From NCBI GenBank assembly GCA_018657065.1, contig JABHXU010000020.1:185100-249099 (forward strand): a stretch of DNA of 64,000 bases, in the 5' to 3' direction. A program made the position numbers and the translations under genes. The notes beneath the pieces are model-generated. The model was not told the DNA's origin. It saw only the letters and a list, made by a program, of their open reading frames with translations, and searched no databases. This DNA comes from an archaeon. Its GTDB lineage: Archaea > Nanobdellota > Nanobdellia > Woesearchaeales > GW2011-AR15. Shown in pieces: positions 6,430-18,854 of the stretch (position 1 is the stretch's first letter; each line of letters starts with the position of its first letter).

Positions 6430-6447
6430 TTTTCTTAATAAAAAAAA

Positions 6448-6571
6448 TGGGCCCGATCGGATTTGAACCGACGACCACTCGATCACTGACTGATAAGTTA
6501 TCAGTCGAGCGCTCCATTATCCCACTACCAGGGTACGACCCTAGCGAGTGACCAGACTAAGCCACGGGCCC
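6448..6571 (-). tRNA. tRNA-Ile(GAT) with 15-nt anticodon intron and 34-nt D-loop insertion
   Basis: Acceptor GGGCCCG/CGGGCCC; T-arm GTCGG-TTCAAAT-CCGAT; anticodon stem CTCGA/TCGAG; loop CTGATA|A. Intron 6484-6498 with BHB (CTGA/TCAG, bulges TAA and TGA). Insertion 6515-6548. Confidence 0.85.
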
Positions 6572-6703
6572 GCTTGTTTTCCATACTGTGGGCTTGACTG
6601 ACCGAAGGAATGGAAACCCACCTTGCGTGTCAACCGAGCGTAACCAGTTGCCATGACTACGATCGGGCCCGTTTGTTTTGCTTTTTGAGAGCATTAAAAA
6701 AAG

Positions 6704-18729: not shown

Positions 18730-18854
18730 AGCGAGGGGAGAGACTCGAACTCTCGATGGTCGGGATCAACTTAATTTAGTGATATCATCGCACAATTGTG
18801 CTCATCATCCCAATCATTTGCAGCCGACTGCCTTAGCCGCTTGGCGACCCCCGC
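18730..18854 (-). tRNA. tRNA-Cys(GCA) with ~53-nt intron
   Basis: GCGGGGG/CCCTCGC; T-arm GAGAG-TTCGAGT-CTCTC; anticodon stem GTCGG/CCGAC; loop CTGCAA|C; U73. Intron approx 18765-18817. Confidence 0.82.

Follow-up and report, generated by a model that had tools for sequence, protein, structure and literature searches.

A probable copy of a very small mobile element that favors tRNA genes, upstream of tRNA-Ile(GAT) in a woesearchaeal archaeon

It has not been settled how introns move among archaeal tRNA genes or how such genes come to be disrupted, and the mechanism of tRNA-intron transposition in the Thermoproteales is described as still unknown (PMC4090602; also PMC4033280). In Caldiarchaeum subterraneum, an arrangement of a tRNA-Thr fragment, an insertion, and an intron-gained tRNA-Thr has been explained by a mobile element (Sugahara et al. 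2012, PMC3293823). These are the closest precedents for the tRNA-Ile(GAT) locus discussed here, which lies on the minus strand of a 64,000-nucleotide stretch (the window) of contig JABHXU010000020.1, from a member of the archaeal order Woesearchaeales with an AT-rich assembly (1.49 Mb, 28% GC). We put at about 80% the probability that minus-strand positions 6670 to 6572, immediately upstream of this gene, represent a single copy from a DPANN-specific family of tiny mobile elements (~55 to 140 bp), which are non-coding and show a preference for tRNA genes. At the level of sequence comparison, the existence of a repeated, structured DNA segment that relocates with duplication of its target is established. 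The family unites the patterns of both precedents in one small element.

Like the Thermoproteales introns, the family includes related introns in different tRNAs and at several positions. Unlike them, it has a covarying hairpin core at the intron 5' end, resides in DPANN hosts, and also has its core in places that are not introns, where long direct repeats enclose it at gene starts or at the ends of tRNAs. The likeness to the Caldiarchaeum locus lies in the order of tRNA 5' fragment, insertion, and complete tRNA with an extra intron, but that case measures 1.9 kb, includes a putative recombinase gene, and belongs to one population, whereas the present elements are ~0.1 kb, non-coding, and spread over dozens of genomes. 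Furthermore, the D-loop intron of the window's tRNA-Ile predates the upstream insertion, since relatives without the insertion have the intron.

The core emerged from a BLAST search of relatives with the whole locus, in which only 30-odd bases of the upstream segment matched in many genomes. It begins with a 7-bp hairpin whose hexaloop is TTACGC; the linker RCRCGCAA comes next, and then a second hairpin. A pattern for the core, CAACTGGTTACGCTCGGTTGACACGCAAGG, matches 33 of the 353 sampled genomes of the order (Woesearchaeales-like DPANN), compared to none for the reversed control pattern, and a covariance model of the core has matches in 85 of 345. Within the hairpin, the outer 5' strand covaries with the 3' strand (96% paired; score of 0.254, compared to 0.120 for shuffled alignments, 0 of 500 of which reached it, and at most 0.058 for slid partners), although the search pattern did not include it. 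In a scan of named records nearly all core matches are from DPANN, Nanohaloarchaeota and others also being found, and in a phylum sample all core matches among the matches listed belong to the same order. Viral contigs gave no core match with two patterns. An Rfam scan of positions 6440 to 6700 (E<=10) returned only a weak tRNA match and chance matches, and in the open-licence literature we found no description of the element family, nor any paper on tRNA introns with Woesearchaeota. Group I and II introns, snoRNAs, and TnpB/IscB guide RNAs were weighed on general grounds and set aside.

Some variation of the core is visible. Linker letters (positions 21 to 23 of the 28-nt core) track the hairpin 5' strand, in the combinations CAACT-ACA, CAAAT-ATA, CAGCT-GCA, and CAGCC-GCG. 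A second core type, CAGCT-TCTTGCTA-AGCTG-GCACGCA, occurs in T-loop introns of the same lineage (L116, L179, L200, L284, L285, and L287) and is sometimes nested with the first. (G000 is the genome of the window and other G labels its relatives; L labels are fetched sites, and C labels are contigs.) At L041 (1424-1560, in G003), an extra insertion of ~56 nt parts hairpin 1 from the linker.

Among the fetched sites, ~76 of ~89 short copies (about 85%) lie in or against tRNA genes; we estimate that these genes, counted with flanks of 100 nt, cover ~1% of a genome of this kind. Copies take two forms. In the first they are introns whose 5' end falls exactly at the hairpin, and they occupy the T-, anticodon-, and D-loops of many tRNAs. 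T-loop introns have the form TTCRAA^hairpin...GAAAG^T (carets mark junctions); in 25 of 30, the 5-nt strand after a downstream GAAAG^T restores all five T-stem pairs, and three of the remaining five end at a contig end. Other introns lie in anticodon loops (L067, L074, L075, and L237) and D-loops (L213, L220, L227, and L238). In the second form, direct repeats of ~16 to 45 nt flank the copy on both sides, the left, truncated repeat copy lying against the hairpin. These repeats exceed shuffled sequences (p<=0.01) at 27 of the 34 sites tested, and several are perfect: 20/20 at L043, 32/32 at L063, 45/45 at L099, 17/17 at L102, and 22/22 at L068. The repeated stretch is a tRNA 5' end up to the D-loop, a tRNA 3' end up to the T-loop (antisense copies at L068 and on C8 of the window's own genome), or a gene start including the start codon (L099, L113, L184, and the own-genome copy on C11, L181).

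The window's genome, which was searched whole with the covariance model, has at least four copies: the one in the window, one on C4 upstream of another tRNA, the one on C11 at a gene start, and the antisense one on C8 at a tRNA-Ser. The window copy is not itself an intron; it sits upstream of an intact tRNA gene, between direct repeats. Related duplications surround insertions downstream of tRNAs, where tRNA 3' ends recur (AATCC...GGGCCCA repeats) at L032 (G000:C4) and, downstream of tRNA-Ile, at L038 and L040; the inserts at these three sites resemble antisense relatives of the element that have diverged, with CTCAC or GCCAC as the joining sequence. At L232 (~480-620, G122:C5) a copy in a tRNA T-arm is found with AGTCCGG duplicated on both sides and a BHB (bulge-helix-bulge)-type 3' end, TGAAAG, possibly an intermediate between the repeat type and the intron type. 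One tRNA-Glu (L089, ~5980 and 6120, reverse) has two copies, one between 5'-end repeats and one as an anticodon-loop intron.

Miniature inverted-repeat transposable elements (MITEs) are likewise tiny, non-coding, and repeated. A long relative of the family (~250 to 300 bp, with several hairpins around the same core) is present in many copies (L070, L072, L077, L097, and L109, in G049) and has terminal inverted repeats together with 8-bp target duplications (TATAAAGC, AAAAAATA, and GTTTGATA); an Rfam scan of long-form loci returned tRNAs only. The short form shares target duplication with MITEs, but by reading it has no visible terminal inverted repeat, and its direct repeats are long and variable rather than of a fixed short length. 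Further long-form sites are L101, L129, L138-L140, L088, and L098.

Direct repeats that reach from the end of a tRNA as far as its D- or T-loop also resemble archaeal attachment sites (PMC3293823), and they might be the attL and attR of an integrative plasmid or virus with an SSV- or pNOB8-type tyrosine integrase, its cargo since lost. We consider this quite unlikely: the same core recurs in 85 genomes and at non-tRNA sites, copies exist as introns within tRNA loops, the two patterns find nothing on viral contigs, and fresh non-tRNA copies have unrelated repeats (L063, L099, and L102). Tyrosine recombinases, which such a relic would call for, are in all 20 tested genomes and are hence uninformative, and the window repeats enclose less than 100 bp, leaving no room for an integrase gene between them.

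Comparison of orthologous loci points to movement. The tRNA-Ile genes of three relatives (G002, G005, and G001) are missing the upstream insertion and so provide empty sites, and the order of the locus is kept in G005 and G007, with tRNA-Phe upstream of tRNA-Ile. G002 and G001 have related or similar insertions on the 3' side of tRNA-Ile, and the tRNA 3' end there is duplicated. In one orthologous tRNA-Pro, followed through nine genomes, core types differ and some copies are nested, and G117 has a T-loop intron that lacks the core. Tandem units occur (L234 and L240), and altogether copies are found at unrelated loci, in both orientations, nested, and in tandem.

A structural RNA fixed in leaders and introns, selected for processing or regulation and not mobile, would account for the strong conservation of loop and linker. 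It could also be read into the conserved strand TGGTTACGC, whose mean complementarity to the 5' sides of own-genome tRNA D-arms is 6.0, compared to 4.6 for shuffled sequences (4 of 300 as high), in a test with a few tRNAs wrongly oriented. The patchy distribution, empty orthologous sites, nested and antisense copies, and target duplications make such a fixed RNA very unlikely. A special pairing of the first repeat copies with TGGTTACG was rejected, as the second copies score equally (mean of 6.35 in both).

The precise end and the variable end of each copy, and the tendency of duplicated stretches to begin near transcript starts and to contain start codons, recall an RNA-borne route, in which excised (circular) introns whose 5' hairpin end is free would be joined to 5' fragments of other transcripts and copied back to DNA, the duplicated stretch then being the 5' end of a transcript; circularisation of archaeal tRNA introns is known (PMC12558985). 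Yet no reverse transcriptase was found in 12 of 14 tested carriers, the complete genome G019 among them, antisense copies lie at tRNA 3' ends (L068 and the own-genome copies on C8 and C4), and some repeats run past tRNA ends (L205), so that we regard this route as unlikely. Because both orientations occur and most carriers gave no reverse transcriptase, we instead infer insertion at the DNA level, in which the hairpin end would be recognised.

Several points weigh against a mobile-element interpretation of the segment. Searches for reverse transcriptase, Y1 transposase, and tyrosine recombinase found no enzyme that moves the element; Y1 transposase is in 4 of 12 carriers and was not found in G000 or G019. 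Repeat lengths vary more than is usual for transposases, and the ~85% share of tRNA loci rests on by-eye classification of the fetched sites. Intron-type copies show no clear target duplication, and therefore the two types might differ in origin. Because the window copy is old, with a diverged repeat, its history has to be read by analogy with fresher copies.

The window repeat itself, AAAACAAACGGGCCCGATCGTAGTCATGG compared to AAAACAAGCGGGCCCGTGGCTTAGTCTGG, reaches ~9 nt upstream of the tRNA start (AAAACAAAC and AAAACAAGC), with a local score significant against shuffles (p = 0.01). An earlier reading of this DNA from its letters (the sequence-only reading) had remarked that a minus-strand segment resembles the tRNA's own 5' half, and this is true of 6670-6651 (GGGCCCGATCGTAGTCATGG), a partial tRNA duplication as that reading had allowed, abutting the element hairpin with the intact tRNA downstream. 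The perfect 11-nt complementarity to the tRNA 3' end is likewise real (GGGCCCGATCG is the reverse complement of CGATCGGGCCC); seven of its nucleotides come from the acceptor duplication and four are extra, and no such extension was seen at two other duplicated sites compared by eye (L032 and L041). The segment may yet be a regulatory decoy, but the complementarity was not seen at those two sites. Inspection by hand for a circularly permuted or overlapping tRNA from the GGGCCC palindrome gave no consistent cloverleaf, and that candidate was rejected.

The same reading had seen in the segment a possible alternative 5' half, with a Val (GAC) anticodon, related to the Caldivirga arrangement; such a half would use the 3' half of tRNA-Ile through splicing in cis or in trans. 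In the split tRNAs of Nanoarchaeum and Caldivirga (PMC4033280), too, the 5' part of a tRNA is detached and runs into structured sequence that is not tRNA, and the 11-nt complementarity, together with a possible 5-bp anticodon stem with TCGAG, would suit this. Here, however, a complete gene follows, and the fragment is redundant, degenerate, and attached to a mobile core. Although the anticodon-like string CTCGGTTGACA does occur, it is part of the family-wide hairpin and linker core: its TTGACA stands beside tRNAs of many identities and beside protein genes. At the place where the D-stem requires GCTT, the first copy reads CGTA, which cannot pair with GAGC, so that no D-stem can form. A complete tRNA-Val(GAC) is encoded elsewhere (G000:C3:3400-3474, on a 6.3-kb contig of an assembly with an estimated 2.5% contamination), and tRNA-Val(TAC) is on a 160-kb contig (C11), so that no half is needed for an otherwise missing tRNA. 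A split-tRNA arrangement is thus highly improbable, and tRNA fragments adjoining tRNA genes are not necessarily split-tRNA halves. The sequence-only observations were real; what they did not notice is the main fact, a multi-genome mobile element inside the segment.

The downstream gene is intact. Its 15-nt anticodon-loop intron at position 37/38 has the BHB drawn before, and the aligned relatives also settle the D-loop insertion, reported earlier as 34 nt and without a drawable canonical BHB. The insertion is real, but it measures 35 nt, and a BHB can be drawn: its borders, placed by comparison with intron-less orthologues, are TAGTCTGG^TCAC...ATAA^TGGAG, and an outer D-stem, GCTT/GAGC, encloses a 4-bp central helix flanked by two 3-nt bulges, as in archaeal BHB introns. 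The joined exons, TAGTCTGG^TGGAG, equal the intron-less orthologues, which have an uninterrupted TAGTCTGGTGGAG (TAGCCTGGTGGAG in G007). The intron is common to G001, G002, and G005 and absent from the tRNA-Ile of G004, G006, G007, G008, G009, and G015. Its central helix is GTCT/AGAC in G005 and GCC/GGC plus one mismatch in G001; 96% of cells are paired, compared to 36 to 47% for slid partners, and with only four sequences a shuffle control shows no significant covariation. The D-loop insertion is an ordinary non-canonical BHB intron. The earlier concern about a pseudogene finds no support: once both introns are taken out the sequence is that of a normal tRNA-Ile(GAT), and relatives conserve the tRNA body as well as the D-loop intron. 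The spliced tRNA has a z-score of -2.95, yet its D-arm is shifted in the minimum-energy fold.

The history of the mobile-element copy may be sketched as follows. The element would have inserted in the D-loop region of an ancestral tRNA-Ile, and, by analogy with fresher copies, ~29 bp including the tRNA 5' end would have been duplicated. The promoter-proximal copy would then have decayed into the apparent decoy while the distal copy completed the intact gene. Transcription would still begin upstream of the first copy, where a promoter-like TTTTTTTAA lies in the same position as in relatives (CGCAATTTTTTTAAAT, upstream of an intact tRNA-Ile; upstream regions of G000, G002, G005, and G007 were compared); the element is therefore expected in the transcribed leader, trimmed from a normal tRNA. 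RNase P would remove leader and element together, and the splicing endonuclease would remove the older D-loop intron and the anticodon intron, giving normal tRNA-Ile(GAT). Coordinates are collected in Table 1.

Table 1. Features of the tRNA-Ile(GAT) locus and its upstream segment, in window positions
Feature	Positions	Strand	Score or basis
TATA-like box CTTTTTTTAATG, ~22 to 33 nt upstream of first (partial) copy	6692..6703	-	putative, from upstream-region comparison
Left direct-repeat copy, AAAACAAAC + GGGCCCGATCGTAGTCATGG, partial diverged tRNA-Ile 5' end	6651..6679	-	score 17, shuffle 95% = 10
Element hairpin 1, CAACTGG-TTACGC-TCGGTTG, hexaloop TTACGC conserved	6631..6650	-	R1 match 6650-6621, E 4.9e-11
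Conserved linker ACACGCAA	6623..6630	-	
Element hairpin 2, GGTGGGTTT...CAAGCCCACA, stem GTGGG/CCCAC; type also in other copies	6587..6622	-	
Spacer; final part AAAACAAGC = start of right direct-repeat copy	6572..6586	-	
tRNA-Ile(GAT) exon 1 (positions 1-20), also right direct-repeat copy	6552..6571	-	
D-loop BHB intron, 35 nt, helix GTCT/GGAT, bulges GG^T and AA^T	6517..6551	-	
tRNA-Ile exon 2	6499..6516	-	
Canonical 37/38 BHB intron, 15 nt, ACTTATCAGTCAGTG	6484..6498	-	
tRNA-Ile exon 3, discriminator A	6448..6483	-	

Copies in tRNA loops may persist because their 3' end would complete a bulge-helix-bulge with the loop sequence. We tentatively suggest, at somewhat short of even odds, that a miniature element class with a covarying terminal TTACGC hairpin and long target duplications is the vehicle of intron gain in DPANN tRNA genes, one and the same unit existing either as an insertion with duplicated flanks or, within a tRNA loop, as a BHB intron that can be spliced. 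The family offers a recognisable core, fresh copies, empty and nested sites, intron and non-intron states, and presence in a quarter of the sampled genomes of the order, and with it insertion models become testable through comparison and RNA sequencing.

Other tRNA genes of the window's minus strand are tRNA-Thr(TGT) and an intron-bearing tRNA-Phe(GAA); an ARAGORN run on the window called neither this tRNA-Phe nor the tRNA-Ile. It also does not call a tRNA-Cys(GCA)-like gene with a long intron at 18730-18854 (minus). Identical intron-bearing tRNA-Leu genes at two contig ends (G000:C8:90652-90773 and C16:43398-43519) are probably a single locus, split or repeated by the assembly. The same genome has two tRNA-His(GTG) genes (C11 and C18).
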